NCBI RefSeq assembly: GCF_008087345.1
Contig: NZ_VHIB01000001.1
Coordinates: 62,001-126,000, forward strand
DNA length: 64,000 nt
Reading direction: 5' to 3'
DNA from: Nocardioides caldifontis
GTDB lineage: Bacteria; Actinomycetota; Actinomycetes; Propionibacteriales; Nocardioidaceae
The notes under the pieces are model-generated. The model made no database searches. It was not told the origin of the DNA and saw nothing but the letters and a program-made list of their open reading frames with translations. Made by a program: the position numbers and the translations under genes. Shown in pieces: positions 40,766 to 63,872 of this stretch; the stretch's first letter is position 1, and the number at the start of each line of letters is the position of its first letter.

Positions 40766-40771
40766 GTCCGT

Positions 40772-40777: not shown

Positions 40778-40820
40778 CGGCTCCCCGCGGCGGCTCCCCG
40801 GGGGTGTCCTGAGGAGCGGG

Positions 40821-41780: not shown

Positions 41781-41786
41781 CGGCAC

Positions 41787-41835
41787 ATCCTGCCGACCGG
41801 TCGGGGAGCACCCGTCGCCGCCCCCGTGCCAGGAT
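41787..41835. promoter_or_regulatory. Back-to-back CAGGAT -10 boxes (EamA 2 and holin-like gene)
   Basis: CAGGAT on the minus strand at 41787-41792, 6 nt before GTG 41780, and CAGGAT on the plus strand at 41830-41835, 7 nt before GTG 41843. Both predict leaderless transcripts from one short shared region. Confidence 0.5.
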
Positions 41836-41842
41836 CGTGGGC

Positions 41843-42214
41843 GTGAGCTTCCTGGTCCGTCTCGTCGTCAACGCCCTCGCCCTCGCGGCCGCCGCGTGGC
41901 TGTTCGACGGCATCGAGGTGGGCGGGGCCGACACCAGCGACCGCGTCGTGACGCTGCTCGTGGTGGCGCTGATCTTCGGCCTCGTCAACGCGTTCGTCGC
42001 GCCGGTGGTCAAGCTGGTCTCGCTGCCGTTCATCATCCTGACGCTGGGGCTGCTGCTGCTCGTCATCAACGCCCTGATGCTGCTGCTGACCAGCCGCCTG
42101 GCGGAGGCGTTCGAGCTCGACTTCACCGTCGACGGGTTCTGGTCGGCCGTGCTCGGCTCGATCGTGATCTCGATCGTCGGCGCGGTGCTCAACGGGGTGC
42201 TGCAGGATGACTGA
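41843..42214 (+). CDS. Phage holin family 4-like membrane protein (PF04020-type)
   Basis: 123 residues with four hydrophobic segments: FLVRLVVNALALAAAAWLF, VVTLLVVALIFGLVNAFVAP, LPFIILTLGLLLLVINALML and SAVLGSIVISIVGAVLNGVL. The middle NAFVAPVVKLVSLPFIILTLG is the family signature. Despite the family name these are chromosomal, widespread and of unknown function. GTG 41843 chosen by the leaderless promoter; GTG 41837 would add two residues. The stop overlaps the next ATG (ATGA). Confidence 0.88.
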   Translation: MSFLVRLVVNALALAAAAWLFDGIEVGGADTSDRVVTLLVVALIFGLVNAFVAPVVKLVSLPFIILTLGLLLLVINALMLLLTSRLAEAFELDFTVDGFWSAVLGSIVISIVGAVLNGVLQDD

Positions 42215-46195: not shown

Positions 46196-46198
46196 CGC

Positions 46199-47491: not shown

Positions 47492-48054
47492 CGGGGCTCC
47501 AGGAAGTTCGCCACCAGCCGCTCCCCGTGCTCGCTCAGCACCGACTCGGGGTGGAACTGCACGCCGGCCAGCGGGAGCGTCCGGTGCTCCACCCCCATGA
47601 CGACACCGTCCTCGGACGTCGCGGTCACCCGCAGCTCCGGCGGCACCTCGACGGCGGCCAGCGAGTGGTAGCGCACCACCCGCACCGGGGACGGGATCCC
47701 CGAGAAGAGGCCGGCCCCGTCGTGCGTCACGGTCGCCACCTCGCCGTGCGCCGGCTCGACCGCGACCACGCGTCCGCCGTACGTCGAGACGAGCCCCTGC
47801 ATCCCGAGGCAGACGCCGAGGACCGGGGTGGCCGCCCGGAGCAGCACCTCCCGGCCGACGCCGAAGTCGGCGGGGTCGTCGGGGGTGCCCGGGCCGGGTG
47901 AGAGCACGACGTGGGTGAAGGGCGCGAGCTGCTCGACGATGACCTGGTCGTGCTCCACGACGGTCGGGAGGACGCCGGTCACCGAGGCGACGAGGTGGAC
48001 GAGGTTCCAGGTGTAGGAGTCGTAGTGGTCCACCACGACGACATTGGTTGTCAA
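47488..48054 (-). CDS. pabA: Aminodeoxychorismate/anthranilate synthase component II (glutaminase)
   Basis: 188 residues, class I glutamine amidotransferase. Catalytic Cys in VLGVCLGMQGL (about residue 82), His and Glu in AGVQFHPESVLSEHG, oxyanion loop SPGPGTPDD. Supplies ammonia to PabB. Its ATG overlaps the stop of the PhzE-like gene and its stop overlaps pabB's start, each by 4 bases, so the three genes are made together. It could in principle also serve a TrpE elsewhere. Confidence 0.92.
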   Translation of the reverse strand: MTTNVVVVDHYDSYTWNLVHLVASVTGVLPTVVEHDQVIVEQLAPFTHVVLSPGPGTPDDPADFGVGREVLLRAATPVLGVCLGMQGLVSTYGGRVVAVEPAHGEVATVTHDGAGLFSGIPSPVRVVRYHSLAAVEVPPELRVTATSEDGVVMGVEHRTLPLAGVQFHPESVLSEHGERLVANFLEPR

Positions 48055-49997: not shown

Positions 49998-50129
49998 CCG
50001 GCGGGTTCCTGAGGGGCGGAAAGCAGGTGGCCCGGCGACACGCGCGGGCGACCGTTCAGCCAGCGTGTCGGGACCTACGTCCTCGGGACCAGGTGGGGAC
50101 CTTGGGGTCGAGGGTAAACGGACATTCTG

Positions 50130-50226
50130 CCCTTCGCGTTGCCGGCGAAGTGGGTCAGGATGAACCCCGTGAAGGGGAGGAGTCGGGGGGCTCCGAGCCA
50201 GGCGCCCGGGGGGTGCGCCGATTCCA
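50130..50226 (-). ncRNA. 6C RNA (candidate)
   Basis: On the minus strand two neighbouring hairpins each carry a run of six cytosines in the loop: GGCGC ACCCCCCGG GCGCC (50219-50201) and GGAG CCCCCCGA CTCC (50194-50179). This is the defining feature of the actinobacterial 6C RNA motif, whose M. tuberculosis member is about 93 nt. A CCCC/GGGG hairpin (50177-50165) and a CTTCGC/GCGAAG hairpin (50150-50132) follow and could end the RNA. Ends are approximate. Most of this 360-bp gap is explained by it; a 61-codon ORF across it is not credible. Confidence 0.72.
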
Positions 50227-50292
50227 GGTGAGGGGGCAGGGGGTCCCGAGCCGGGATCACGGGGGACGTTCAGAAACGGGGATACCGCGACT

Positions 50293-50332
50293 GGGGCAGG
50301 GCCTTGGGGGCCCGGCCCCGTCGTGGTTTTTT
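50293..50332 (+). terminator. GC-rich hairpin with T6
   Basis: GGGGCAGGGCC (50293-50303) pairs with GGCCCGGCCCC (50309-50319) with one mismatch and a 5-nt loop, then GTCGTGG and TTTTTT at 50327-50332. On the plus strand it resembles a terminator, though no plus-strand gene precedes it. On the minus strand it lies between the HelR-like gene and the 6C RNA. Confidence 0.35.
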
Positions 50333-50357
50333 CGGCCTTTCGTTCCTGACTCGCCGG

Positions 50358-52589
50358 TCAGCGGGCGCTGACGGTGACCAGCCGCTGGGTGGCGCGGGTG
50401 AGCACGACGTAGAGCGTCGCTCGCCCGGTCGCCGACTCCTCCTCGATCGCCTGCGGGTCGACCACGACGATGCCGTCGAACTCGAGCCCCTTGGTGTCGA
50501 GCCCGGTCAGCACCGGCAGCCGCGCCTCGTCGCCACCCGTGCGCGCCTCCGCGACCTCGGGCCACCCCTCGGTCCAGCGGGCGACCTCCTCGCGCATGGC
50601 GACGGGCACGACGATGCCGACGGTGCCGTCGAGCTCGTCGAGCAGCTCGCCGACGGCCTTGCGGACACCGGCTTCGAGGTCGTCCACGACCAGCTCGGCA
50701 GGGGCGACGCCGGTCCGGCGTACGGCATCGGGGAGGTCGACGTCGAGGCCGACGCGGGCGGCGTACTCCGCGGCGTGCTGGTAGATCTCCGCGCTGTTGC
50801 GGTAGTTCGTGCCCAGGTGGAATGTGTGTCGTGGTCGGCGTGTCCACGACCATTGGTTGCGTCGGCCTGACCGCTCACCTTCGCCAGCGCCCCCGAAGAG
50901 CGCCTCCTCGCGGGCCGCCGCGGCCTCCTCGGGGAACGGCCAGGACGACTGGGCGGGGTCGCCGACGACGGTCCAGGTGGCGGTGGGGCCGCGCCGGCCG
51001 ACCATCCGCCACTGCATCGGGGAGAGGTCCTGCGCCTCGTCGACGAGCACGTGGGCGTAGGTGTCGTCCTCGGTGCGGTTCGCGGTGCGCGGGCCGGAGA
51101 ACTCGCGGTCGGTGATCGTGGTGAGCTCCGGCATGTTCGCGTCGACGAGGTGGGCGAGCGGGTCGCGCTCCTCGTCGGGGTCGTTGCGCTCCGGCGGGTC
51201 GCCGAGCTGGTAGCGGAGCTCGTCGAGCAGCGGCACGTCCTCGACCGACCAGTCGTCGTGCCAGGCGTCGGGGCGGCTCAGCACCCGCACGTCGTCCGGC
51301 GACAGGACGCCTTCGGCGACGCGGCCGAGGAGCTCGGGGTCGCGGAGCCAGCGGAGCACCTCGGTGGCGTCGAGCGCCGGCCACCACTCGCGCACGAAGA
51401 GCAGGAACTTGTCGTCGGAGAGCATCGTGTCGACGAAGTCCTCGCGGCCGCGCTCGAGCGCCCGCTCGCCGCGCACCTGGCGCCACAGGGCGTCGACGAG
51501 CGCGGTGGCGACACGGTCGACCTGGCGGTTGCGCTTGCCCTGCGACAGCAGGCTGCGGCGGACCCGGGCGAGGTCGCGGCCGGAGAGGACGAGCGAGTCG
51601 TCGCGGTAGAACGTGCGGAACTCCCGCGGGGCGCCGGGCACCGCCTGCCGCGCCGTACGCCGGAGCAGCTCGGCCATCCGCCGCGAACCCTTCACGGCAG
51701 CGACGTCGGGGGCGTCGTGACGGGTGCCGCGGATCCCGTCGACGACCTCGCCGAGCGAGCGGAGCGCCACCGCGGTCTCGCCGAGCGAGGGCAGGACCCG
51801 CTCGATGTAGCGCATGAAGACGCCGGAGGGGCCGACGACGAGCACGCCGCCGCGCTCGTACCTCGCCCGGTCGGTGTAGAGCAGGAAGGCCGCGCGGTGC
51901 AGCGCGACCACGGTCTTGCCGGTGCCTGGGCCGCCGGAGATCTCCACGACGCCCTTGGCGGGCGCGCGGATCGCCTTGTCCTGCTCGGCCTGGATGGTGG
52001 CGACGATCGAGTGCATCGACCGGTCGCGGGCGCGGGAGAGCTGGGCGAGCAGGGCGCCCTCGCCGACGATCGGCAGGTCGTCGCCGGCCTCGGCGTCGAG
52101 CAGGTCGTCCTCGATGCCGACGACGCGCCGGCCGGAGCACCGGAGCACCCGACGGCGTACGACGCCCTGCGGCTCGGCGGGGGTGGCCTGGTAGAACACC
52201 GCGGCGGCCGGGGCGCGCCAGTCGATCAGCAGCGAGTCACGGTTCTCGTCGCGGAGCCCGATGCGGCCGATGTAGCGGGGGGCCTCGGTGGGGTCCTTGA
52301 GGTCGATGCGGCCGAAGACCAGCCCCTCGTGGGCGGCGTTGAGCGTGGCGATGCGCTTGGCGGCCTGGAAGACCATGGCGTCGCGCTCGACCAGCCCGCC
52401 CTCGTGGCCGAGCCGGGCGCGGCCGTGCCCCTCCTTCGCCAACGCCTCGGCAGCCCGGGTCGACGACTCGAGCTGGCGGTAGACGACGTCGACGAACTCC
52501 TGCTCCGCGGCGACCTCGCGCTGCGCCAGCTCTTCGGCGGTCATCTGGTCGGTCAACGGACGGCCGATCCCCTCGTCGTGGTCCCGCAC
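50358..52589 (-). CDS. HelD/HelR-like superfamily 1 ATPase (RNA polymerase recycling type)
   Basis: 743 residues. An N-terminal coiled coil (about 15-75; EELAQREVAAEQEFVDVVY) is the secondary-channel arm of HelD proteins. Then YIGRIGLRDENRDSLLIDWRAPAAAVFYQA, Walker A EISGGPGTGKTVVALHRAA (about 216-234), Walker B HVLVDEAQDLSPMQW, VVGDPAQSSWP, NYRNSAEIYQ and VLTRATQRLV. HelD/HelR removes RNA polymerase from DNA and, in Streptomyces, HelR gives rifamycin tolerance. Around residues 577-597 an unusual basic stretch (GERSGRRNQWSWTRRPR) interrupts the helicase motif. Start uncertain: GTG 52589, TTG 52553 or ATG 52544. No rifamycin-associated element was seen upstream. Confidence 0.85.
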   Translation of the reverse strand: MRDHDEGIGRPLTDQMTAEELAQREVAAEQEFVDVVYRQLESSTRAAEALAKEGHGRARLGHEGGLVERDAMVFQAAKRIATLNAAHEGLVFGRIDLKDPTEAPRYIGRIGLRDENRDSLLIDWRAPAAAVFYQATPAEPQGVVRRRVLRCSGRRVVGIEDDLLDAEAGDDLPIVGEGALLAQLSRARDRSMHSIVATIQAEQDKAIRAPAKGVVEISGGPGTGKTVVALHRAAFLLYTDRARYERGGVLVVGPSGVFMRYIERVLPSLGETAVALRSLGEVVDGIRGTRHDAPDVAAVKGSRRMAELLRRTARQAVPGAPREFRTFYRDDSLVLSGRDLARVRRSLLSQGKRNRQVDRVATALVDALWRQVRGERALERGREDFVDTMLSDDKFLLFVREWWPALDATEVLRWLRDPELLGRVAEGVLSPDDVRVLSRPDAWHDDWSVEDVPLLDELRYQLGDPPERNDPDEERDPLAHLVDANMPELTTITDREFSGPRTANRTEDDTYAHVLVDEAQDLSPMQWRMVGRRGPTATWTVVGDPAQSSWPFPEEAAAAREEALFGGAGEGERSGRRNQWSWTRRPRHTFHLGTNYRNSAEIYQHAAEYAARVGLDVDLPDAVRRTGVAPAELVVDDLEAGVRKAVGELLDELDGTVGIVVPVAMREEVARWTEGWPEVAEARTGGDEARLPVLTGLDTKGLEFDGIVVVDPQAIEEESATGRATLYVVLTRATQRLVTVSAR

Positions 52590-52645
52590 CCTCCCGCGGG
52601 AACCGAGCGTCCAACTCTACCGACCTCTCGTTGGGTCCACGCGGT

Positions 52646-52651
52646 TAGGTT
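52646..52651 (+). promoter_or_regulatory. -10 box of aldo/keto reductase, leaderless
   Basis: TAGGTT, 7 nt before the ATG at 52659. On the opposite strand TAGAGT near 52614-52619 may serve the HelR-like gene. Confidence 0.45.
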
Positions 52652-52658
52652 CGGATGC

Positions 52659-53453
52659 ATGACGGACCTCCACCTCCCCGACGACGTCGCCACCTTCGCC
52701 AGCGGTGCGCAGATGCCGCTGCTCGGCTTCGGCACCTGGCAGATCACCGGCGACGACGCCACCCGGTCGACCGCTGCCGCCCTGTCGGCCGGCTACCGGC
52801 ACATCGACACCGCGCACGTCTACGGCAACGAGGGCGAGATCGGCCAGGCCCTTCGCTCGGCGGGAGTGCCGCGGGAGGAGCTGTTCCTCACGACCAAGTG
52901 CCCGCCGCACAAGGCGGAGTCCTGCCTCGCGGTGCTGGAGGAGAGCCTCTCGCTCCTGGGGGTCGACCACGTCGACCTGTGGCTGATCCACTGGCCCGCC
53001 GACTCAGCCGGGGCCGACGTCGAGATGTGGCGCCGGTTCGTCGAGGCCCGGGACTCGGGGCTGACCCGGGACATCGGGGTCTCGAACTTCCCGATCTCGC
53101 TCGTGGACGAGGTGACCGCTGCGACCGGCGAGAAGCCGTCGGTGAACCAGGTGGAGTGGAGCCCGCTGCTGTTCGACTCGTCCGTTTTATCCGAGCATCG
53201 CTCGCGGGACATCGTGCTGGAGGGGTACAGCGCGCTCCGGGGCGGGACCCTGGACCACCCGGTGATCGGCGAGATCGCTTCCTCGCACGGCCGGACCCCG
53301 GCGCAGGTGATCATCCGGTGGCACCTCCAGCACGGGGTGGTCGTCATCCCGAAGTCGACGAAGGAGGAGCGGATCCGGTCCAACGCGGACGTGGCGGACT
53401 TCAGCCTGAGCGATGCAGAAATGGCCGCCATCGACGCGCTGGGGCGCGCTTGA
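52659..53453 (+). CDS. Aldo/keto reductase
   Basis: 264 residues, NADPH-dependent (beta/alpha)8 barrel. Asp and Tyr in HIDTAHVYGNEGEIG, Lys in LTTKCPPHK, His in LWLIHWPAD, then GVSNFPISLVDEV and the cofactor loop VVIPKSTKEERIRSN. The N-terminus has the family signature QMPLLGFGTWQ. Physiological carbonyl substrate unknown. ATG after a TAGGTT box. It is the last core-like gene before the lower-GC island; the stop is followed at once by CGCCCTAACGC, repeated at the island's far end. Confidence 0.92.
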   Translation: MTDLHLPDDVATFASGAQMPLLGFGTWQITGDDATRSTAAALSAGYRHIDTAHVYGNEGEIGQALRSAGVPREELFLTTKCPPHKAESCLAVLEESLSLLGVDHVDLWLIHWPADSAGADVEMWRRFVEARDSGLTRDIGVSNFPISLVDEVTAATGEKPSVNQVEWSPLLFDSSVLSEHRSRDIVLEGYSALRGGTLDHPVIGEIASSHGRTPAQVIIRWHLQHGVVVIPKSTKEERIRSNADVADFSLSDAEMAAIDALGRA

Positions 53454-53454
53454 G

Positions 53455-53465
53455 CGCCCTAACGC
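53455..53465 (+). repeat. Possible left island boundary repeat
   Basis: CGCCCTAACGC occurs here, directly after the aldo/keto reductase stop, and again at 61193-61203 in the same orientation. The 203-bp gap to the amidase holds no gene that I support; it contains a weak AGGATC/GATCCT hairpin at 53635-53649. Confidence 0.35.
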
Positions 53466-53656
53466 AACATTGGGCGAGGCGTGCCCGCGGCGGAGAACGC
53501 GTCAGCGGGACCTGCCGACCACTCCGCGGCACGAAGGTGGTGAGCGAGCGGCCCTCATGGCGTACACCGGCCGACCCGGGTACGACGAAGGTCGAGTCGG
53601 CCTGCTGCCACTAGCTCGACCGGCGCCTAGTATAAGGATCCGAGATCCTCTCGAGC

Positions 53657-55066
53657 TCAACTAGCGACGCTGGCCAGGGAACCCGTCAGGTCGAGTTCGC
53701 GCTCCAAGACGGCAGCAGCACCGATCACCCGCTCGTCTTCGCCGGGCCGCCCCACGACCTGGATACCGACGGGCAGGCCATCATGCGTGAAGCCGCAGGG
53801 AATCGAAACGATCGGGCAACCGGTCACCGTGAGCGACGACGTCATGAACATCCAGTCGATGTAGGTCTGGCACTCGCGTCCTGCTACTGACGTCGGGAAT
53901 TCTAGGTCGACCGGGAACGGCGGAACCGCGACTGTCGGACATAGAAGGATGTCGATCTCGTCGAACATACGAAGCATGTACTCGTACACCCGTGTCCGCC
54001 CAGTCTCAGCCGCGAGGTAGTCGTCGGCGGTGAGGTTGAACCCCTGCTCGACGTTTTTGACGATCGCGGGAAGAATGTGGTCAGCGTGTCGACGCACCGT
54101 GTCGCCATGCACGACTGAGAGCAGTTGCGCGCGCAGCGTGTCAAAGACGTCGAGCGCGAGGCGGAAGTCGACATCTTCCTCCGTCACCTGAATACCGACG
54201 TCAGCCAGGCGACCTGCTGCTGATCGACAGATGCTGGCGACTTCGGGGTCGACCGGCGCGATCCCGAGGTCACTACTGAATCCAACCCGTGTCGGCGGCA
54301 GCAGCCGGCTCAGCCGGTCTGTGACCGCGTCGCTCGGAGCTGGCCACGACAGCGGGTCGGCGACGCTACGCCCTACCTGGGCGCCGAACATCAGGGCAAC
54401 GTCGGTGACGTTGCGCGCCATGGGTCCTTCGACCAACAACGCGTCGTACCGCGGCCACGCGTCGCCGCGAGCGATCCGACCCGGCGACGGACGCATGCCG
54501 ACGACACCACAGAAGCTGGCCGGGATTCGGAGGCTCCCACCGAGGTCGGAACCCATGGCAAGCCAGCTCGTACGACTCGCGAGAGACGCCGCGGCACCAC
54601 CAGAGGAACCGCCGGCCGTGCGGTCAAGGCACCAGGGATTGCGAGTGGCACCGTAGACCGCGTTGAAGGTGTTGGCGCCAGCGAACTCTGGCACGTTCGT
54701 TTTCCCGAGCGGGATGCCGCCGTTCGAGATGATCCGAGACACGGGAACGTCTGTGCTCGTGGCTGTCCTGTCCCTGTACAGCGTCGACCCATAGGTCGTG
54801 GGAAGACCCTCGATGTCGTTGTACTCCTTGGCGACGAACGGCAGCCCGGCGAGATATGTCGGATCATCGCGCCTCTCCGCTACGAACCGGAACTCCTTCG
54901 CGATACTGCGTGCCCGTTCGAAGTCGCGCACGGGAACAGCATTGATTTCGGCGTCCGCGTCTTGAATCCGCGAGATCGCGGCCTCCGTCACCTCGAGGGG
55001 AGACACCTTCTGGCTCTTCAGAAGAGCGACGACCTCTGTCGCCGACAGCTGGTGCAAGTTGGTCAC
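53657..55066 (-). CDS. Amidase-signature family hydrolase
   Basis: 469 residues, GatA-like. The Ser-cisSer-Lys triad is visible: Lys in PFVAKEYND (about 78), cis-Ser and nucleophile Ser in RTAGGSSGGAAASL and MGSDLGGSLRIPASFCG (about 150-178). Ends with VSIPCGFTHDGLPVGIQVVG. Without gatB/gatC beside it, it is an independent amidase acting on a small amide or acylated amine. Lower GC and less biased codons than the flanks. The ATG overlaps the livM stop by four bases, so it is the distal gene of the transporter transcript and probably acts on the imported compound. Confidence 0.9.
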   Translation of the reverse strand: MTNLHQLSATEVVALLKSQKVSPLEVTEAAISRIQDADAEINAVPVRDFERARSIAKEFRFVAERRDDPTYLAGLPFVAKEYNDIEGLPTTYGSTLYRDRTATSTDVPVSRIISNGGIPLGKTNVPEFAGANTFNAVYGATRNPWCLDRTAGGSSGGAAASLASRTSWLAMGSDLGGSLRIPASFCGVVGMRPSPGRIARGDAWPRYDALLVEGPMARNVTDVALMFGAQVGRSVADPLSWPAPSDAVTDRLSRLLPPTRVGFSSDLGIAPVDPEVASICRSAAGRLADVGIQVTEEDVDFRLALDVFDTLRAQLLSVVHGDTVRRHADHILPAIVKNVEQGFNLTADDYLAAETGRTRVYEYMLRMFDEIDILLCPTVAVPPFPVDLEFPTSVAGRECQTYIDWMFMTSSLTVTGCPIVSIPCGFTHDGLPVGIQVVGRPGEDERVIGAAAVLERELDLTGSLASVAS

Positions 55067-56127
55067 TTCACATCACTTCCTTGAGTTGTTGCCTCTTCGG
55101 CGGCGTTGCTTGGCGGCACGGCAGGGCCTGTGGGCGGAGGACGTTCCAGGACGTCGTCCTGCGAGGTGCCGCGCAGGCGCGCGAGCGCGGCAGACACAGC
55201 GCCCCAGATGCCGCCTCGGAAAAAGAGGAGGATCAGAACGAAGACGGCCCCCGTAACAGAGCCGGTTGCTTCGATTCCGGAGGTCGCAAGGAAGTCCTCG
55301 AGCAGCACGAGCAACGCGGCGCCCACGATCGACCCGAAAAGTGTCGCGGTGCCTCCGAGAACCGCCATAGCGATGCCTTCACCGGAGGTCGTCCAGTAGA
55401 GGTCCTGCAGCGTCACCATGCGATGACCGATCGCATAAACACCGCCCGCGATGCCCGCGAGGAAGGCCGAGAGCACGAAGGCGAACACTCGGTAACGCTC
55501 CACGGAGAAGCCAAGGGCTCGCACGCGCGCCGGATTTGCCCTCAGCGCCACGAGAACCTGTCCCGTCGGTGAGTTCACGGACCGCCAGGCGACCCAGAAA
55601 CCGATCGCCACTATAAGGAGCGCTGCGTGATAGTAGACGAAGGGATCCGACCACTCGAGTCCGACGAAGTCTCGGGGAATCCCTTGGAGCCCGTTCTCGC
55701 CTCCCGTCAATGAGCTCCACCGATTGGCGATGTAATAGATGAGCTGCGCAAACGCCAGCGTCACCATCGTGAAATAGATGCCATGCGTGCGCACCGCCAC
55801 CAGCCCGATTGGAACGGCCACCAGCGCCGCTGAGACGGCGCCAACAAGGATAGCGAGGGGGAAGGGAACTCCGAGCTCGATGGCGGCCAAGCCCGTGGCA
55901 TAGGCGGAGACCCCCCAGAAGGCAGCATGGCCGAAGGACAGCATGCCGGCATATCCGAAGAGGATGTCGATCGACATGGCGAACAGTGCCCAAGCGAGGA
56001 TGTCTACCGCGATCGGCGGGTACACCAGCCACGGCAACATCAACGCAAGCAACGCGCCTGCCCCCAAGAGGGCCCAACCGGCCGTCTGGTTGCGCCGCGC
56101 CGACTGAACGAGTCGGACGGTGATCAT
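55063..56127 (-). CDS. livM: Branched-chain amino acid-type ABC permease (LivM)
   Basis: 354 residues, eight to nine membrane helices. Family markers: FAMSIDILFGYAGMLSFGHAAFWGVSAY, HGIYFTMVTLAFAQLIYYI, GENGLQGIPRD, LRANPARVRALGFSVERYR and GVYAIGHRMVTLQDLYWTTSGEG. The C-terminal 45 residues (RLRGTSQDDVLERPPPTGPA) are a hydrophilic tail. ATG 56127 overlaps the livH stop by four bases. Translocates the ligand delivered by the LivK-type protein. Confidence 0.92.
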   Translation of the reverse strand: MITVRLVQSARRNQTAGWALLGAGALLALMLPWLVYPPIAVDILAWALFAMSIDILFGYAGMLSFGHAAFWGVSAYATGLAAIELGVPFPLAILVGAVSAALVAVPIGLVAVRTHGIYFTMVTLAFAQLIYYIANRWSSLTGGENGLQGIPRDFVGLEWSDPFVYYHAALLIVAIGFWVAWRSVNSPTGQVLVALRANPARVRALGFSVERYRVFAFVLSAFLAGIAGGVYAIGHRMVTLQDLYWTTSGEGIAMAVLGGTATLFGSIVGAALLVLLEDFLATSGIEATGSVTGAVFVLILLFFRGGIWGAVSAALARLRGTSQDDVLERPPPTGPAVPPSNAAEEATTQGSDVK

Positions 56128-56996
56128 CGGGCGGCCTCCTGTCGCCCTAGCAAGCCAGACGGGCGAACCGCGAGAACGACTGCCATGAGTATGAAAGTCG
56201 TCGCCCCCGCCGCGGCCGGGACGTACATCTGTGCGAGCTCTTGAAGGAAACCGACGAGATAGGCGGCCAACACCGCTCCGAGAACGGATCCCATCCCGCC
56301 GATAATGATTACCGCAAACAAGATGATTACAATGTCGGCTCCCATTGCAGAGTTGACCGACCGCATCGGTGCGGCCATGACACCCGCCAGTGCCGCGAGC
56401 GCCACTCCGAACGCGAACACCGGAATCATCCAGACATTCACATTGACGCCGAAGGCCTCGGTGAGTGAAGGGCGCTCGGTCGCAGCGCGCACCACCATCC
56501 CTACCTTGGTCTTGTTCAACGCCAGCCAGACCCCACAAGTTAGTGCGATGGAAGCGATCAGGACGACGAACTGATAGGTCGGGTACTCCAGGGGACCGAA
56601 ATTGATGCGGCCTTCCAAGGCGGCAGGTTTTGCATACGGTTGACCGACCACTCCGTAATTCAGGCGAACCAGGTCCTGGATGATGAGGGCCAACCCGAAG
56701 GTCAGCAAGAAGTTGTAGACGGGGTCGAGAGGAACCAAACGTCGAATCAGCGTCCGCTCGACGACAACTCCCCCCGCGGCAATGACGACGGGTACGACAA
56801 CGAGCGCTGCCCAGAACGGCGTACCGAACATGTCGTACAGGATCACCGCCCCGAAAGCGCCCAACATGTACACCGCTCCGTGGGCGAAGTTCGCGACCCT
56901 GAGCATTCCGTAGATCACCGCGAGGCCGATTGCCAGTAAGGCGTAGAACCCGCCCGAAACGAGCCCGTTGAGGGAAGCCTGAAGGAATGTGGTCAT
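56124..56996 (-). CDS. livH: Branched-chain amino acid-type ABC permease (LivH)
   Basis: 290 residues, about eight membrane helices. QASLNGLVSGGFYALLAIGLAVIYGMLRVANFAHGAVYM is the LivH N-terminal signature region, and RAATERPSLTEAFGVNV is the coupling loop; ends PSGLLGRQEAAR. ATG 56996 is chosen as the family start; longer in-frame readings are not supported. It lies 22 bp after the binding-protein stop. Confidence 0.92.
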   Translation of the reverse strand: MTTFLQASLNGLVSGGFYALLAIGLAVIYGMLRVANFAHGAVYMLGAFGAVILYDMFGTPFWAALVVVPVVIAAGGVVVERTLIRRLVPLDPVYNFLLTFGLALIIQDLVRLNYGVVGQPYAKPAALEGRINFGPLEYPTYQFVVLIASIALTCGVWLALNKTKVGMVVRAATERPSLTEAFGVNVNVWMIPVFAFGVALAALAGVMAAPMRSVNSAMGADIVIILFAVIIIGGMGSVLGAVLAAYLVGFLQELAQMYVPAAAGATTFILMAVVLAVRPSGLLGRQEAAR

Positions 56997-57018
56997 CTGC
57001 GTTTCAATGAACCGCGAG

Positions 57019-58263
57019 TCAGCCGAGGTCGCACGACGAGCTTGGCGGCCCGAACGCTTCGTCGGCGGGAATCGTCTCGACAAGTTCGGTGTAGTCGAAG
57101 GCTTCCTGGACGTCCTTGGCCTCCTTGACCACCGTCAGGTACGAGTCGTGGATCATCCGGTGGTCTTCCGACCTGACGCGGGCATTGCGGGCAAACATGT
57201 CCTCGAACTCATGTCCGTCCAGCTCCTCGGCAACAGCGTCCGCGTCGTCGGTTCCAGCGCGCTGAACCGCTTCTAGGTACTGCGTCGCGGCCGAGTAGTC
57301 ACCGGCGTGGACTGCTGTAGGACGCACATCTAGCCGCGCCTTGAAGTCATCCGCCCATTCGCGCGCTTCGTCGTCCTGATTCCAGAACCAGTCCGTGGTG
57401 TAGAGGGTTCCAGACATTTGAGTCGCGCCGATCGACTCCACATCGGTGTCGAACATCGCGCCGACCGCGAGCTCGATACCAGCTTCGGCGAGCCCGAACT
57501 CGTTGTACTGCTTGACGAAGTTCGTCAGGTCACTGCCAGCTGCCATGGTGGCGATGACGTCCGGCTTGATCTCCAGCGCCTTCGTCATCGACGCGGCGAA
57601 GTTGTCGTTCGGGAAGGGAGTTGCGTCCGTCCCGAGAACCTTCCCTCCGTTTGCCTCGATGTGAGTCGTGAACGCTGCCGTCATGTCCTGCCCGAACTGG
57701 TAGTCGGGATAGACGATGTACCAGTTCTTCTCACCCCGCTGGGTCAACGTGGCAGCGCTTCCGCGCGCGAGCATCTCAGTGTCGTAAGCCCAGTGGTATG
57801 TGTACTCGTTGCAGGCGCTACCGGTCAGGTCGGTGCTACCTGCGGCGACGTTGATGTAGATGCGCTGGAACTCCTCGGCGAGGTCAGCCACCGCGAGGGC
57901 GGCTGCAGAGGATGGGACATCGAAGATCGCGTCCGCACCTTGCCTGTCGAAGAGCTCACGAGCCTTGGTGTTTGCGATGTCCGGCTCATTCTGGTGATCG
58001 GCGGACAAGACCTCGATCTCTTGAGCCACGGCGTCTGAGCCGTACTTCTCCTGGTAGTCGTCGACCGCCATCTTGACGGCCTCCAGCGAGCCCTTTCCGG
58101 TCAACGCCGAGTATGTCCCTGACATATCCGTGACCACTGCCAGCGTCAGTTTTCCATTGGAGATCGCCTGATCGTCACCTAGCGCAGTCGGACCGCCCCC
58201 GCAAGCGCTCACTCCGAGTGCAGTTGTGGCAGCGATGGACACGGCGGTCTTTCGGCGGTTCAT
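57019..58263 (-). CDS. livK: ABC transporter substrate-binding lipoprotein (LivK/urea-amide type)
   Basis: 414 residues. Lipoprotein signal MNRRKTAVSIAATTALGVSAC, Cys 21. A periplasmic-binding-protein type I body follows: KLTLAVVTDMSGTYSALTGKGSLEAVKMAVDDY, ADHQNEPDIANTKARELFD, RGEKNWYIVYPDYQFGQDM and HRMIHDSYLTVVKEAKDVQ. The closest familiar relatives take branched-chain amino acids, urea or short amides; the pocket cannot be read with confidence. GGCTCC/GGAAGG-like purines precede the ATG. The neighbouring amidase favours an amide ligand (inference). Confidence 0.9.
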   Translation of the reverse strand: MNRRKTAVSIAATTALGVSACGGGPTALGDDQAISNGKLTLAVVTDMSGTYSALTGKGSLEAVKMAVDDYQEKYGSDAVAQEIEVLSADHQNEPDIANTKARELFDRQGADAIFDVPSSAAALAVADLAEEFQRIYINVAAGSTDLTGSACNEYTYHWAYDTEMLARGSAATLTQRGEKNWYIVYPDYQFGQDMTAAFTTHIEANGGKVLGTDATPFPNDNFAASMTKALEIKPDVIATMAAGSDLTNFVKQYNEFGLAEAGIELAVGAMFDTDVESIGATQMSGTLYTTDWFWNQDDEAREWADDFKARLDVRPTAVHAGDYSAATQYLEAVQRAGTDDADAVAEELDGHEFEDMFARNARVRSEDHRMIHDSYLTVVKEAKDVQEAFDYTELVETIPADEAFGPPSSSCDLG

Positions 58264-58288
58264 GGGAGCCTTCCTGTTGATGGAGGTA

Positions 58289-58981
58289 CTAAATGCCCAG
58301 ATGGGCGAGCAGGTCGTTCTCGCGCGCGATGACGTCGGAGTTGTCGAGATGGTCAACGATGTGGCCTTCCGCGATGAGGAAGTGTTTATGTGCAACCGTG
58401 GTCGCGAAGCGAAGGTTCTGCTCGACGAGCAGGATGGTCGCTCCGGAACTGGCGACTTCCCGCAGAATCTCGGCAATCTGATCGACGATGACGGGCGCGA
58501 GCCCTTCGGTCGGCTCATCGCAGAGCACAACGTCCGCGCCCATCCGCAGGACACGTGCCAGCGCCAGCATCTGCTGCTCGCCTCCTGACAGGGAACCGGC
58601 CATCTGACGGCGCCGTTGCCCCAGGACGGGGAAGGTCCCAAACAGTCGCTCCTCGGCCCAGGCATTGGCGCCGATGACCCGAGGGAGGCGGAGATTCTCT
58701 TCGACGGTCAGCGACGAGTAGATCCCCCGATCGTCCTGGACCCAGCCCAAACCCATGCGCGCCCGACGGTGCGGGCGCAGGCGCGTGATGTCGCGTCCCA
58801 GGAACTTGATCGAGCCGCTGGAGATGGGGTGAAGGCCCATGATGCTGCGCAGAAGGGTGGACTTCCCGGCCCCATTGCGTCCGATCAGAGTGACCACGTC
58901 GCCCTGGCCAACCTGGAGGGACACTTCATGAAGCACGGTGGCTTCGCCGTACCCCGCGGATACGTGCCTCAGTTCAAGCAC
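58289..58981 (-). CDS. livF: ABC transporter ATP-binding protein (LivF)
   Basis: 230 residues, normal for LivF. Walker A LIGRNGAGKSTLLRSIMG, Q-loop WVQDDRGIYSSLTVEENL, signature GSLSGGEQQMLALARVL, Walker B VVLCDEPTEGLAP and H-loop LLVEQNLRFA. GTG at 58981 overlaps the livG stop by 8 nt; ATG 59002 and ATG 59029 are possible but lie deeper in livG and have no ribosome binding site. Pairs with LivG. Confidence 0.9.
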   Translation of the reverse strand: MLELRHVSAGYGEATVLHEVSLQVGQGDVVTLIGRNGAGKSTLLRSIMGLHPISSGSIKFLGRDITRLRPHRRARMGLGWVQDDRGIYSSLTVEENLRLPRVIGANAWAEERLFGTFPVLGQRRRQMAGSLSGGEQQMLALARVLRMGADVVLCDEPTEGLAPVIVDQIAEILREVASSGATILLVEQNLRFATTVAHKHFLIAEGHIVDHLDNSDVIARENDLLAHLGI

Positions 58982-59723
58982 GGTGCGCCCCCAGGTAGGC
59001 ATCGACGACACGCGGATCACTACGGACATCGGAGTACGTCCCTGATGCGATCAGTTCGCCCGCCTGCAGGACGGAGACGGTGTCAGCCAGCATGCCGACG
59101 ACCTTCATGTTGTGCTCGACCAGAACGATCGTGCGGCCTCCCTTGATCCGTTGTATGAGATCAATGGTTCGCTCGATGTCTTCCGTCCCCATCCCCGCCG
59201 TCGGCTCGTCGAGGAGCAGGACGGCTGGATCCGCTGCGACGACCATGGCGAGCTCGAGGGCACGCTTCTGGCCATATGCGAGGTCGCCAGCTCGGCGATC
59301 ACCGAGATGACCTAGCCCGACAAGTTCGAGAACCTCGGTCGTTCGCTCGGCGAAAGCTCCCAAGGAGCGGACGCTCGTGAGGAAGCGCGTGCGTAGGGAA
59401 GAGTGTGCGAGCAGCGTGAGGTCAACGTGCGAGCGGACGGTGCGATCGTCGAAGACGCTGCTCACTTGGAAGGATCGCGCCACACCCAGGCGTGCGATCG
59501 TGTGCGCCGGCAGTCCAGTGACCTCGCGCTCCCTTAGGTATATCCGACCGGACGACGGGGCGAGAGCGCCGCTGAGCAGGTTGAACAGAGTCGTCTTGCC
59601 GGCTCCGTTGGGCCCGACCAGGGCGTGGGTCTCACCTTCCCGTACGGCGAGGTCCACCCCGTCCTTTCCGCCGACGGCGCGAAAGCCCCTGAACTCCTTG
59701 ACGAGCCGTTCCGTCCTCAGCAT
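58974..59723 (-). CDS. livG: ABC transporter ATP-binding protein (LivG)
   Basis: 249 residues. Walker A LVGPNGAGKTTLFNLLSG, LivG-type signature AGDLAYGQKRALELAM (no canonical LSGGQ, as usual for LivG), Walker B VLLLDEPTAGMGTEDI, and H-loop LVEHNMKVVGMLAD; MGTEDIE replaces the common LNPxE. ATG 59723 is chosen because the fold begins here. First gene of the livG-livF-livK-livH-livM-amidase transcript, facing the regulator gene across 101 bp. Confidence 0.9.
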   Translation of the reverse strand: MLRTERLVKEFRGFRAVGGKDGVDLAVREGETHALVGPNGAGKTTLFNLLSGALAPSSGRIYLREREVTGLPAHTIARLGVARSFQVSSVFDDRTVRSHVDLTLLAHSSLRTRFLTSVRSLGAFAERTTEVLELVGLGHLGDRRAGDLAYGQKRALELAMVVAADPAVLLLDEPTAGMGTEDIERTIDLIQRIKGGRTIVLVEHNMKVVGMLADTVSVLQAGELIASGTYSDVRSDPRVVDAYLGAHRA

Positions 59724-59742
59724 CCCATGAGCCTTTCGGTGA

Positions 59743-59780
59743 GTGGCGACAGCCTCTTGTGGCCGGTCGCCACCCCACAA
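59743..59780. promoter_or_regulatory. Nested inverted repeats in the livG/regulator divergent region
   Basis: GTGGCGAC (59743-59750) with GTCGCCAC (59766-59773), and TTGTGG (59757-59762) with CCACAA (59775-59780). They lie midway between the two divergent starts, where an Lrp-type protein would bind. Confidence 0.5.
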
Positions 59781-59824
59781 TGGCGACTTGCAGGTTTGGC
59801 GGAAGTGGCCGATCATGTGGCGAA

Positions 59825-60850
59825 ATGCGATCACGAGGGAACGCCAGGCTCGATGATCTCGACCGACTGGTCGTGGCCTGCCTCCAGGTGAACGGTCGCG
59901 CATCGTGGCGACGCATCGGCGAAGTGCTCGAGCTACCGGAGCGGACGGTAGCCCGACATGGCACACATCTTCTGGAAGAGCGAATCGTTCAGATCCGCGG
60001 CTTGGGCGAGCCGCGGCGCACCGGTCGCGGAGAACAGTACGTCCTTCGAGCCAAGTCGGCTCCGGGGATGAGTTGGATGTCGGCTAGCTACCTCGCTCGC
60101 CGCGTCGAAACTGTGGTCACTTACGTTGTCACCGGAGCGAGTGACTGCTACGCCGACCTCGCTTGCAGCGATGAACGGCTCGGTCCGGTGTTCTTGCAGG
60201 AGCTCGCCGGAACTCCAGGGATCGTTGACTACACCCTGTATCCGGTCCTTCGGTACTTCCGAACCCTCGGAGAGTGGCAGCCGGAAATCCTCTCGGACCA
60301 ACAGATCGATGCGCTCCGTGATGACGGTCCTCCGCAGGAGTGGCCATCTACTGTCGCACCGTATCCGCTCAATCACGTCGAAGATGCCGTCCTCCGCGGA
60401 CTCGCCGAGAACGGGCGAAGGTCGGCTGAGGAACTTGCTCGAGCAGCTGGTGTGTCGGTGCAGACCGTCCGGCGAAGGATCGCGGCGCTCCAGGCCGCGG
60501 GCATCCTGAGCATCCGGGCGGTCCTTGAACCAGCGCTTCTGGGCTTCCCGATCGGGGCCTTGATCTGGTTGAAGGTAAAGCCGGGGAACATCGACACGGT
60601 GGTGAGTAGCCTCCAGGCGTCCCCGTACGTGCGCTACGGCGCGATCGTACTGGGTTCCGAGAACGTCGTCGTTGACGTGCGGGTTCCCGATCGACGCACT
60701 CTTTATGACTTCCTCAATGCGTCCGACTGGGCGCCACTGGCCGAGGCGGCCGAGGCGTCAATGATCTTGTCTGCCTTGAAGCAGAGCGACATTTTGCTCG
60801 ACCAGGGACCACCGGTTTCCTGGGCGACCCCTGACCGCAGTCTCCGTTGA
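59825..60850 (+). CDS. Lrp/AsnC-type regulator with two HTH-sensor modules
   Basis: 341 residues, about twice the usual Lrp length. Module one: HTH LDDLDRLVVACLQVNGRASW to HLLEERIVQIRG (about 9-60) and an alpha-beta sensor (about 85-155; ETVVTYVVTGASDCYADLAC). Module two: HTH NHVEDAVLRGLAENGRRSAEELARAAGVSVQTVRRRIAALQAAGI (about 179-223) and a second sensor (about 225-325; GALIWLKVKPGNIDTVVSSL, VRYGAIVLGSENVVVDV). Probably senses the ligand of the adjacent importer and controls livG onward plus itself. ATG 59825 chosen by the start of the fold. Lower GC, same island. Confidence 0.87.
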   Translation: MRSRGNARLDDLDRLVVACLQVNGRASWRRIGEVLELPERTVARHGTHLLEERIVQIRGLGEPRRTGRGEQYVLRAKSAPGMSWMSASYLARRVETVVTYVVTGASDCYADLACSDERLGPVFLQELAGTPGIVDYTLYPVLRYFRTLGEWQPEILSDQQIDALRDDGPPQEWPSTVAPYPLNHVEDAVLRGLAENGRRSAEELARAAGVSVQTVRRRIAALQAAGILSIRAVLEPALLGFPIGALIWLKVKPGNIDTVVSSLQASPYVRYGAIVLGSENVVVDVRVPDRRTLYDFLNASDWAPLAEAAEASMILSALKQSDILLDQGPPVSWATPDRSLR

Positions 60851-61029
60851 GGGTTTGGCAGTCACCACTGACTGCGGACCCGTGCACCGGGGTCTTGAGG
60901 GGACGCCACCAAATTGGTGGGATGACGTCCACGAGTTTCCGCTTCGCGGCGATCTGGCCCAGAGCCAGCCCTTCGGCGCCCATCTGTCGGCGGACGGCCT
61001 CTTCTCTTCCTCGGTCCCGCATCTCTCAA

Positions 61030-61089
61030 CTGACGAGAGTGTGGACGCCCTCGGGCGCAAGATGCCGCTGATCGGCCTCGGCACCTAGG
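61030..61089 (+). pseudogene. Possible aldo/keto reductase N-terminal remnant
   Basis: In frame with stop TAG at 61087-61089 the sequence reads DESVDALGRKMPLIGLGT. MPLIGLGT is the N-terminal strand motif of aldo/keto reductases, but the frame ends at the point where the barrel should continue. It may be a decayed piece of such a gene. Too short to be sure. The rest of 60851-61525 (675 bp) shows no gene that I can support; small ORFs there lack family character or a ribosome binding site. Confidence 0.35.
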
Positions 61090-61192
61090 GAACCAACCAG
61101 TGACGACGCGACCCGGCTCCCGCTCGGGGCTTCCGAAGCGGAGATACCTCAGATCGACACCTGCGCCTCGACCATACAAAGTGGAGCGGGCC

Positions 61193-61203
61193 CGCCCTAA
61201 CGC
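61193..61203 (+). repeat. Possible right island boundary repeat
   Basis: CGCCCTAACGC, identical to 53455-53465 and in the same orientation. Base composition returns to the high-GC norm just beyond this point. No integrase or tRNA is nearby. Confidence 0.35.
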
Positions 61204-61525
61204 CGAAGTCCACGTCGAAGCAGGACGCGGACCCGTCGAATCACCCCACGTCGTCCAGAACCCAGCCGGAGTGGGCCGGGCGCGACGGCTTCACTGAGCC
61301 AGTAGTAGACCGGCGGGTGGCTCCACCATCCGAAGCGACCGCTGGGTGTCCACGGCCGCCTTTTTCCAGCTCCGATGGTCACGTGCGCGTGTGACGGGAC
61401 GACCCTCGGTGCCAGGGCGGCCGACACCGACTCGATCGCCGCTCGACGTCGTCCACACGGGCCCGCCACTGCTCGATGGGTGGGCTCGGCCGATCGGTGG
61501 TTCGCGGGTCTGATGAACTCGCGCC

Positions 61526-62212
61526 ATGACCGTCGCCCACCACCACTTCGACGAGGATTCGTTCCGCCGCGGTCTGCGCGCGGGCTGGGGATACACCGGT
61601 CCCGGGTTCCTGGTGTCCCTCTCCTTCGGCGTCGTGGCCACCGATGCCGGGATGACGCCGTGGCAGGCGGTCCTCATGTCGGCGATCGTCTTCGCGGGCT
61701 CGGCGCAGTTCGCGTCGATCGCGGTCATCGCCGCGGGGGGCGGGCTGCCGGCAGCGTTCTCCGCAGCCACGCTGATGAACTCGCGGTTCCTGGCGATGGG
61801 CATCGCGCTCGCACCGTCCTTGCCCGGCGGCCCGGTGCGGCGCGCGCTCCAAGGCCAGGCCGTGATCGACGCGTCGTGGGCGCTCGCCAACCGCGGGGAC
61901 GGGACCTTCGACCGGTGGGCGCTCTTCGGGTCCACCGCCCCTCAGTACGTCGGGTGGGTGGCCGGCACCGCGCTCGGCACCGTCTCCGGTGACCTCCTCG
62001 GCGACATCGAGCGCTGGGGCCTCGACGCGGTTTTCCCCGCGTTCTTCGTCGCGTTGCTGGTGACCGAGGTGCGGAGCTCCACCGGCGCGACTGCGGCGGT
62101 GCTCGGCGGCCTCATCGCCTTGGCCCTGGTACCGGTCGCCCCGGCCGGCGTGCCGGTGCTCGCCGCGACCGCCGCGGCCGTCGTAGGGCTGCGCGGGAGG
62201 CGGACCGCATGA
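61526..62212 (+). CDS. azlC: AzlC-family branched-chain amino acid exporter subunit
   Basis: 228 residues, about six membrane helices. Markers: FRRGLRAGWGYTGPGFLVSLSFGVVATDAGM, MSAIVFAGSAQFASIAVIAAGG, TLMNSRFLAMGIALAP and AVFPAFFVALLVTEV. With AzlD it exports branched-chain amino acids or analogues in Bacillus (family knowledge). The stop overlaps the azlD ATG by four bases. High GC, so it is taken as core sequence outside the island. Confidence 0.92.
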   Translation: MTVAHHHFDEDSFRRGLRAGWGYTGPGFLVSLSFGVVATDAGMTPWQAVLMSAIVFAGSAQFASIAVIAAGGGLPAAFSAATLMNSRFLAMGIALAPSLPGGPVRRALQGQAVIDASWALANRGDGTFDRWALFGSTAPQYVGWVAGTALGTVSGDLLGDIERWGLDAVFPAFFVALLVTEVRSSTGATAAVLGGLIALALVPVAPAGVPVLAATAAAVVGLRGRRTA

Positions 62213-62514
62213 CGTTGTGGATTCTCATCGGGGCGTGCGCGCTCATGACCGCGGTGGTCAAAGGGATCGGCCCGTGGGCTCTTGGCGGCCGGGAGCTTCC
62301 CGGCTGGTTCCCGTCACTGGTGACCGCGATGGTGCCCGCGCTGCTCGCCGGCCTGGTGGTCACCGCCGCCCTCGCCGACGGCCGCCGCATCGAGATCGGC
62401 GCGGACACTGCGGGCGTCGCCGCGGCCCTCGTCGTCGCGTGGCGCGGCGGGTCGATGCTCGCCGTCGTCCTCGTCGCCGTGGCCGTCACCGCCGGGCTGC
62501 GGCTGGTGCTCTGA
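62209..62514 (+). CDS. azlD: AzlD-family small membrane subunit
   Basis: 101 residues, three to four hydrophobic segments (LWILIGACALMTAVVKGIG, LVTAMVPALLAGLVVTAALA, LAVVLVAVAVTAGLRLVL), the normal size of AzlD. The GP motif in KGIGPWALGG fits the family. Partner of AzlC; ATGA overlap with it indicates coupling. Confidence 0.92.
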   Translation: MTLWILIGACALMTAVVKGIGPWALGGRELPGWFPSLVTAMVPALLAGLVVTAALADGRRIEIGADTAGVAAALVVAWRGGSMLAVVLVAVAVTAGLRLVL

Positions 62515-62584
62515 CGCGCGCGATGTGGATGTCCGCGCGCTCCGGCGGGTGCGCCCGCGGTCGGGTCGGGTGCACACTGACCGG

Positions 62585-63088
62585 ATGCTCAAGTCTGGAC
62601 CTCCGCCGCTGACCGTCGTCCGACCCGGGGAGGGCCGCACGGGCGACCTGGGGTCGATCACCGTCGACTTCAAGCTCATGGGCTCCGACACCGGCGGCGC
62701 GCTGGCGATCGTGGAGCACGGGTTCCCGCCCGGCGCACTCGTGCCCCCGCACGTCCACACCCTCGAGGACGAGTACTCGATCGTCACCGAAGGTGAGATC
62801 GGTTTCCGGTCGGGGGACCGCGAGGTCGTGCTCGGTCCAGGCGGCTACATCACCAAGCCTCGCGGAGAGGCCCACGCGATGTGGAACGCCAGCCCTGAGC
62901 CGGCGCGGATGATCGAGGTGATCACCCCGGCCGGGTTCGAGCTGTTCTTCCGTGCCGTCGTGGACCTGCTCGAGGCCGGCGACGACGACCCCGAGCAGGG
63001 TGATCGCCTCGCCGCCCAGCACGGGCTGTCGTTCGTCGACACCCCCTGGCTGGCCGACGTCGTACGCCGCTTCAACCTCGACGCCTGA
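62585..63088 (+). CDS. Cupin-domain protein
   Basis: 167 residues. Single cupin barrel: motif 1 PHVHTLEDEYSIVTEGEIGFRSG with two His and a Glu as likely metal ligands, and motif 2 GGYITKPRGEAHAMWNAS with a third His. Members are dioxygenases, isomerases or sensors; the role here is unknown. ATG 62585 chosen; CACACT lies 6 nt upstream, possibly a leaderless -10. A tract of CCCGG repeats follows the stop. Confidence 0.82.
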   Translation: MLKSGPPPLTVVRPGEGRTGDLGSITVDFKLMGSDTGGALAIVEHGFPPGALVPPHVHTLEDEYSIVTEGEIGFRSGDREVVLGPGGYITKPRGEAHAMWNASPEPARMIEVITPAGFELFFRAVVDLLEAGDDDPEQGDRLAAQHGLSFVDTPWLADVVRRFNLDA

Positions 63089-63092
63089 GCCG

Positions 63093-63118
63093 CCCCGGCC
63101 CGGCCCGGCCCGGCCCGG
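63093..63118. repeat. Pentanucleotide tract (CCCGG)n
   Basis: About five tandem CCCGG units between the cupin and enoyl-CoA hydratase genes; length may vary by slippage. Confidence 0.8.
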
Positions 63119-63125
63119 GCGACAC

Positions 63126-63872
63126 CTACTTCTGGCGGTTCAGGAAAGCCAGCATCGTCTCGCGCGCAGCGTCCGAGGCGAACAGCCGGCTCGACAGCTC
63201 CGCCACCGCCTCGCCGTCCCGCTCGATCCCCTCGAGCATGGCCCGGTTGACGATCCGCTTCGTCTCCCGCAGCCCCTGGGGGTGCCCCTTGCAGAGGTCG
63301 GTCACGATCCGGGAGACCTCGGCGTCCACCTCGTTCTCGGGGACCGCCATCGTCACGAGGCCGATGTTCGCGGCCGCGCGACCGTCGAAGGTCTCCCCGG
63401 TGAGGAACGTCCGCGACGCCGCCCGGCTCGTCATCCGCGGCAGGACGGTCAGCGAGATGGTCGCGGCGGCCAGCCCGAGCCGGACCTCGGTCAGCGCGAA
63501 CGAGCTGGTCGTGGATGCCACGGCGAGGTCGGTCGCGGCCACGATGCCGATGCCGCCCGCTCGTACGGCGCCGGTAACCCGGCTGACGAACGGCTTGGGC
63601 GACGCGACCAGCCGGCGCTGGAGCTCGACGATCCGCCGGGTTCCCTCCTCCATCCCGCCGCCGGCGGCCTCGGAGAGGTCGGCGCCCGAGCAGAAGACCG
63701 AGCCCTTCGAGGTCAGCACGACAACCTTGACCTCGTCGTCGGCCTCCGCGCGGTCCACCCCCGCGAACAGCTCGGTGACCAGCTGCCGGCTGAGAGCGTT
63801 GCGGTTGTGCGGGGCGTCGAGCGTCAGCGTCGCGACGGGACGCTCGACCTCGTAGTGGACGACCTCGGCCAT
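63126..63872 (-). CDS. Enoyl-CoA hydratase/isomerase family protein
   Basis: 248 residues, crotonase fold. APHNRNALSRQLVTELFAG, SGADLSEAAGGGMEEGTRRI (CoA and oxyanion region), and AVRAGGIGIVAATDLAVASTTSSFALTEVRLGLA, in which the usual Glu pair of hydratases is not obvious, so isomerase or another acyl-CoA activity is possible. GAGGGGAG precedes the ATG. It starts 11 bp after the stop of an acyl-CoA dehydrogenase, so both belong to a beta-oxidation-type operon entering from beyond the window. Confidence 0.88.
   Translation of the reverse strand: MAEVVHYEVERPVATLTLDAPHNRNALSRQLVTELFAGVDRAEADDEVKVVVLTSKGSVFCSGADLSEAAGGGMEEGTRRIVELQRRLVASPKPFVSRVTGAVRAGGIGIVAATDLAVASTTSSFALTEVRLGLAAATISLTVLPRMTSRAASRTFLTGETFDGRAAANIGLVTMAVPENEVDAEVSRIVTDLCKGHPQGLRETKRIVNRAMLEGIERDGEAVAELSSRLFASDAARETMLAFLNRQK

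Follow-up and report, generated by a model that had tools for sequence, protein, structure and literature searches.

An amidase, a Liv-type ABC importer and a double-module Lrp/AsnC regulator in a probably acquired operon of Nocardioides caldifontis

Importers of the Liv/HAAT type, represented by LivKHMGF and UrtABCDE, are ATP-binding cassette (ABC) systems composed of one substrate-binding protein (SBP), two permeases and two ATPases. Regulators of the Lrp/AsnC (feast/famine) family join an AsnC-type helix-turn-helix (HTH) domain to a RAM-like fold, and two such modules in a single chain are found in NirDL (4ch7), a structure titled siroheme decarboxylase. This report describes a locus of Nocardioides caldifontis in which a double Lrp/AsnC regulator is divergent from an amidase of the amidase-signature family (PF01425) and a complete five-part Liv-type importer, as judged from open reading frames and Pfam. 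It occupies positions 53657-60850 of the 64,000-nucleotide stretch that was analyzed (hereafter the window; contig NZ_VHIB01000001.1, 62,001 to 126,000). The locus is likely a horizontally acquired, substrate-inducible amide-catabolism operon that takes up and hydrolyzes a small amide bearing a carboxylate; it combines known parts in a new way and does not constitute a new kind of system.

Each part departs in some respect from its described counterparts. The importer includes the SBP, two BPD_transp_2 permeases and two ATPases expected of the Liv/HAAT type, but it scores under the cut-offs of all Urt and Liv NCBIfam models listed, that is, of the urea and the leucine (E. coli-type) equivalogs. 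The amidase matches PF01425 over its full length (300.8 bits against a curated cut-off of 27) and keeps Lys80, Ser154/Ser155 and Ser178 in an alignment with 86 relatives, positions which we take to be the Ser-cisSer-Lys triad of the family; it remains, however, under the cut-off of all 25 NCBIfam models listed (best PRK07486, 339.5 against 465). The regulator differs from typical Lrp/AsnC proteins in having two modules per chain, with an N-terminal sensor missed by Pfam, and from NirDL in that both HTHs look intact and its neighbors concern transport and hydrolysis. The nearest arrangements are those of Nocardioides albus, Nocardioides sp. SLBN-35, Pimelobacter simplex and Rhodococcus koreensis, where an amidase (42-44% identity) is likewise divergent from a double-Lrp protein (39-46%), but a single SCFA_trans-type carrier stands in place of the Liv cassette.

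The seven genes proposed in the initial annotation were all recovered on the strands given. On the minus strand lie the amidase (53657-55066; PF01425, E-value 2.6e-89), a LivM-type permease (55063-56127; PF02653, 1.9e-39; 59-62% identical to its orthologues), a LivH-type permease starting with ATG (56124-56996; PF02653, 5.1e-37), the substrate-binding lipoprotein (57019-58263; PF13458, Peripla_BP_6, 1.7e-88), whose signal contains a Cys (GVSAC), a LivF-type ATPase (58289-59002; PF00005, 9.3e-30) and a LivG-type ATPase (58974-59723; PF00005, 1.7e-29, with the BCA_ABC_TP_C tail PF12399, 4.8e-10). The regulator (59825-60850; PF13404, 1.2e-17) is on the plus strand. Four gene starts were moved and picked by eye, each resulting frame being open with one stop at its end. 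The overlapping stops that had been described for the whole set hold for three of the five same-strand junctions (amidase/LivM and LivM/LivH, 4 bp each; LivF/LivG, 29 bp), while gaps of 22 and 25 bp separate LivH from the SBP and the SBP from LivF.

The association between the amidase and the double-Lrp regulator recurs in other genomes; it is the new part of this work and the finding worth keeping. A search of 394 genomes of the class with the regulator alone returned, at E ≤ 1e-50, six homologues in genomes other than that of the host, and for five of them an amidase was present within the 18 kb fetched. In these five loci the neighboring amidase was also the best match of its genome to the window amidase in a separate amidase search. 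The six genomes (3.5-8.6 Mb) contain 4-15 amidase matches each, some of which are two pieces of one gene, and from this match density an amidase neighbor would be expected by chance in an estimated 2-4% of cases per locus. A regulator-only search of plasmids gave five records, four of them with an amidase (L087, L088, L089 and, as a partial match, L086). As a control, eight of the more distant two-module matches listed (22-32% identity; L073 and L180-L186, L184 being only 13 kb long) were inspected and none had an amidase. Three genomes of one related genus (g7) also show the divergent pair followed by an SCFA_trans carrier; they were found via the amidase, not the regulator, and are excluded from these counts. 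No title or abstract in the literature searched, in which coverage of subscription journals was thin, describes an amidase with a double-Lrp regulator.

The transporter beside the pair varies from locus to locus. An SCFA_trans carrier was identified by Pfam (PF02667) in L068, the SLBN-35 copy; those of L069, L070, and L164 were recognized by their similarity to it. MctP-like symporters, under the equivalog cut-off, stand beside the pair in L085 and L086, and a transporter annotated as Nramp in L088. DUF5058 membrane proteins occur near the amidase and double-Lrp genes in L083 (6175-6981) and L089 (10551-11444), and may possibly import amide-like substrates; M20-type hydrolases are present in both loci and in L081.

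The 101-bp region shared by the divergent promoters (59724-59824) contains four TGGCGA half-sites, at 59744, 59767, 59781, and 59818, two of them inside a perfect 7-bp inverted repeat (59766-59787). None of 5000 dinucleotide shuffles reached four half-sites in 101 bp, and all 101-bp stretches of the window with four TGGCGA copies are located here (starts 59723-59744), although the letters of the motif were partly picked after viewing the sequence. Three copies of some 7-mer were reached by 102 of 5000 simple shuffles, and weight is therefore placed on the four-fold half-site. A related repeat, TTCGCC-N8-GGCGAA, stands just before the regulator start in L068 and L088. Close variants occur in L069, L070, and L164, and less exact ones in L080 and L081; the repeat itself is absent among those listed for L082-L087 and L089. 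It was considered as a shared operator and rejected, as that exact spacing is not found in the window promoter. The relaxed form TCGCC-N8-10-GGCGA has four occurrences in the 64 kb. At the level of sequence, then, the putative half-site is common to the window and to the promoters of orthologous regulators, and the spacing is not.

The best 80 of 140 confirmed amidase loci were surveyed, 71 of them with at least 1.5 kb downstream of the match, some contigs being short. Sixteen of the 80 have an SCFA_trans-type carrier no more than 1.5 kb from the amidase, and four have a double-Lrp gene at up to 3 kb; a Liv-type set of four genes is seen in four at up to 9 kb, and in one (L090) at up to 4.5 kb. 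When neighbors were clustered for 86 amidase loci, the SCFA_trans-type carrier formed the largest functional partner cluster (23/86). Larger clusters consisted of the amidase, two likely antisense frames thereof and ABC ATPases (30), and smaller ones of enoyl-CoA-hydratase-like proteins (15, mostly from marine bins and named by eye), a ligase (8), and a decarboxylase (7); other small clusters are common to closely related marine bins. A single partner shared across the amidase subfamily was rejected, since the top functional cluster reaches only 23 of the 86 loci.

Among solved sequences, the amidase comes closest to UMG-SP urethanases and an aryl acylamidase. A quick tree of 98 rows, to which two submitted loci contributed no row, places it among proteobacterial sequences (fork support 94, below the starred level) and apart from the actinobacterial double-Lrp-linked clade, with an end branch of 1.47 that makes the placement unsure. 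It is thus possible that an amidase of proteobacterial origin has come under an actinobacterial regulator. The enzyme departs from its 86 relatives at 17 of 131 conserved columns, and in a leave-one-out test only one relative departs more. The closest amidase paralogue of the host (42%; G000:C5:104972-106333, locus L072) belongs to a different cluster, with hydantoinase A/B-like and xanthine/CO-dehydrogenase-like genes recognized by eye from translations; an arrangement akin to it occurs in genome G034 (L071).

Several observations weigh against the amide-operon reading. The amidase, the double-Lrp regulator and the Liv set occur together in none of the 80 loci, and joint function therefore rests on one operon. 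One regulator homologue of the class (L084) and one plasmid record (L187, from Nonomuraea, 34.6%) have no amidase, and no transporter was recognized directly beside the pair in L080, L081, L082, and L087, where frames were partly scanned. The long branch of the amidase together with its 17 departures means that its function may have drifted. The Liv cassette has a distribution of its own: with the host set aside, an SBP search at E ≤ 1e-80 found relatives in six of the 394 genomes of the class, all belonging to other families, at 49-64% identity and in an identical five-gene order (G-F-K-H-M), and the 16-20 kb fetched around them contained no amidase match. The cassette could therefore carry an unrelated substrate.

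A rather improbable alternative is that two unrelated modules, an ordinary importer of branched-chain amino acids or small solutes and an amidase-regulator pair, were joined by chance in transfer. It agrees with the amidase-free relatives of the cassette, with the use of other transporters by the pair elsewhere and with the presence in the same insertion of AzlCD, a family named for branched-chain amino-acid transport. Against it, the amidase overlaps LivM, and LivM overlaps LivH, by 4 bp each, all six genes follow one divergent promoter on one strand, and L090 has an amidase (52% identical) directly before a Liv-type set in one run. A single amide operon is the preferred reading.

As regards the substrate, uptake and hydrolysis of an amide, as first proposed, is the natural reading of the genes; nothing found points to the peptides, nicotinamide, acyl-homoserine lactones or herbicides that had been suggested along with it. 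NCBIfam and Protein Data Bank searches returned no equivalog above cut-off for the amidase or the SBP, the closest solved sequences to the latter being 3i09 and 3n0w. The carboxylate carriers beside the pair elsewhere (short-chain fatty-acid carrier, MctP-like symporter) suggest that the substrate amide bears a carboxylate.

A more specific version, for which the odds are low, takes a dicarboxylate monoamide as the substrate, malonamate being the leading candidate: the amidase would release malonate and ammonia, and malonate would be converted to malonyl-CoA. Amidases of 49-51% identity stand beside matches to the malonyl-CoA decarboxylase and synthase of L041 in five of the 80 loci (Marinovum, Mameliella, Paracoccus, Leisingera, and Roseivivax), with a comparable context in two plasmid records (L040 and L041), and the L041 ligase exceeds the NCBIfam malonyl-CoA synthase cut-off (777.7 against 558). 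The SCFA_trans-type carrier near the amidase in 16 loci, at 1.5 kb or less, also fits, as does L085, where an acyl-CoA ligase, the double-Lrp gene, the symporter and the amidase share one strand. On the other side, the L085 ligase is a PRK07787 acyl-CoA synthetase under the malonyl-CoA synthase cut-off, the decarboxylase name stems from record annotation, NCBIfam giving no family, and a decarboxylase match within 5 kb is lacking in 75 of the 80 loci (some contigs being short). No decarboxylase match was obtained in the host genome in a search without a positive control, and no malonate-pathway gene is present among the genes of the insertion scanned with Pfam. Malonamidase E2, whose structure is solved, is related only distantly (E 1e-15 to 1e-14); the window amidase is neither near E2 nor beside malonate genes. 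Apart from the window, a row of decarboxylase, malonyl-CoA synthase-like ligase and amidase, mostly followed by a short-chain-acid carrier, occurs in L093, L095, L101, and L104 (also L097, L040, and L041) and could by itself make up a candidate pathway for malonamate.

The operon is part of a larger insertion. The host genome (4.8 Mb, 33 contigs) was compared with four congeners, one of which is 82% complete. Genome G001 is collinear with window positions 45470-53443 (71-79% DNA identity), reaching into the native aldo/keto reductase gene (AKR; 52659-53453, plus strand; PF00248, 3.3e-53), and then continues within about 30 bp with the likewise native enoyl-CoA hydratase gene (ECH; 63126-63872 in the window, minus strand; PF00378, 1.6e-44). 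In G004 ECH follows about 55 bp after AKR, the orthologues of AKR in both genomes directly preceding ECH; in the loci used for this comparison, L064 and L066, the gap between the aligned ends of the two genes is about 30-60 bp. Since AKR and ECH are direct neighbors in two congeners, which thus display a recognizable empty site, positions 53454-63125 (9672 bp) are inserted relative to G001 and G004. The initial annotation had placed an island at the seven genes alone; its acquired look was borne out, and its extent was too small. Besides the operon, the insertion contains a decayed copy of the left junction (60941-61235), AzlC-type (61526-62212; PF03591, 7e-33) and AzlD-type (62209-62514; PF05437, 3.7e-12) genes and a cupin-domain gene (62525-63088; PF07883, 2.5e-14), all on the plus strand.

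The operon was found in none of the four congeners, and no long stretch of its DNA is matched there, so that universal presence in the genus, which the initial annotation had set against its own proposal, is not what was observed. Long DNA matches between the insertion and the congeners are limited to the AzlC region (69% in G002 and G004; 89% in G001, where it is on another contig). That the AzlCD region (61502-62518) is 89% identical to G001 despite a shared backbone of 71-79% indicates that it probably moved separately or was recently exchanged.

Base composition separates the operon from its surroundings. The G+C content is 61-64% in 2-kb segments from 54 to 60 kb and 67% at 60-62 kb, compared with 69-77% in all others; G+C at third codon positions (GC3) is 0.71-0.79 across the seven genes against 0.94-0.96 in the flanking helD-like, AKR and ECH genes. 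The atypical composition is not shared by the AzlC gene, which is host-like (GC3 0.93), nor by the cupin gene (0.89). The two 60-mers first cited for this trend (35 and 48 of 60 G+C) were exact; alone they prove little, and the segments and GC3 values establish it. Elsewhere in the window, AT skew is extreme at 30001-32000 (-0.295), which holds a tRNA-Gly gene (31408-31498), and at 40001-42000 (+0.175).

The block was probably acquired horizontally. That it is instead ancestral and was lost in the congeners is very unlikely: the comparison could draw on only four congeners, and two of these lack an AKR relative above 45%, but the AKR-ECH junction is clean in two, GC3 is unlike that of the flanks, and an amidase match at E 1e-104 is reached by only five of 341 family genomes, the own included, the other four at 42-44% identity. 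The decayed copy is collinear in blastn with window positions 52502-52588 and 52697-52766. In it, 88 alignment columns at 76% (E 7e-11) correspond to the helD-like 5' end and 72 columns at 79% (E 2e-10) to the N-terminus of AKR; a weak match (E 0.12) is perhaps an AKR C-terminal piece. It is closer to the junction of the host than to that of G001, and the order AKR, operon, decayed helD/AKR copy could be explained by a single crossover of a circle through AKR. No integrase or transposase was detected by Pfam among the ten genes of the insertion or in nine of the 12 frames of at least 35 amino acids over 60851-61525, and no tRNA gene lies at an insertion end, the sole one of the window being the tRNA-Gly above. 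No plasmid record spans 80% of the operon (best 12%), and a contig scan with the amidase alone confirmed no close donor.

The two HTH-sensor modules first ascribed to the regulator are supported to different degrees. Both HTHs are seen by Pfam, as two stretches of PF13404, whereas the RAM domain PF01037 is matched in the second module only (28.6 bits against a cut-off of 25, partial); the first is visible only in an AlphaFold model built with five sequences and of low overall confidence (mean pLDDT 59.6, pTM 0.41), in which each half shows three helices followed by a b-a-b-b-a-b, ferredoxin-like sheet. The protein probably starts at ATG 59825, near the starts of its homologues, rather than at GTG 59759. 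The idea that it is an enzyme rather than a transcription factor, with fused Lrp folds like the siroheme decarboxylase NirDL, is scarcely credible: 4ch7, at rank 7, is the best-ranked structural match covering both halves, with a root-mean-square deviation of 20.8 implying that the halves are placed differently, but the top matches are single-module Lrp/AsnC regulators, both HTHs score as AsnC-type DNA-binding domains and no haem-synthesis gene occurs among the neighbor annotations or the neighbors scanned.

Taken as one operon, the locus would work as follows. The surface lipoprotein SBP would bind a small amide carrying a carboxylate, the Liv-type permeases and ATPases would import it, inward being the presumed direction, and the cytosolic Ser-cisSer-Lys amidase would hydrolyze it to the acid and ammonia (or an amine). 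The regulator would sense the substrate or the product, either being a putative inducer, through its sensor modules, bind the TGGCGA half-sites of the shared promoter and switch the operon, and probably itself, by repression or activation.

Beyond this locus, it may tentatively be proposed that the double-Lrp subfamily comprises dedicated amide-catabolism regulators of Actinomycetes, in which a portable regulator-amidase pair is combined with an exchangeable importer (SCFA_trans, MctP-like, DUF5058, Nramp or Liv ABC) and the two sensor modules read amide and acid separately; the window would then represent the Liv-ABC version, in which an actinobacterial regulator would control an amidase with proteobacterial affinity. 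If this is right, the as yet unassigned regulator subfamily would gain a directly testable function, a regulator-beside-amidase rule would call candidate amide-scavenging operons in many actinobacterial genomes, and the exchangeable importer would narrow the substrate to small carboxylate-bearing amides. With its empty site and the decayed copy of its own junction, the locus offers a readable example of a catabolic operon entering a high-GC chromosome.

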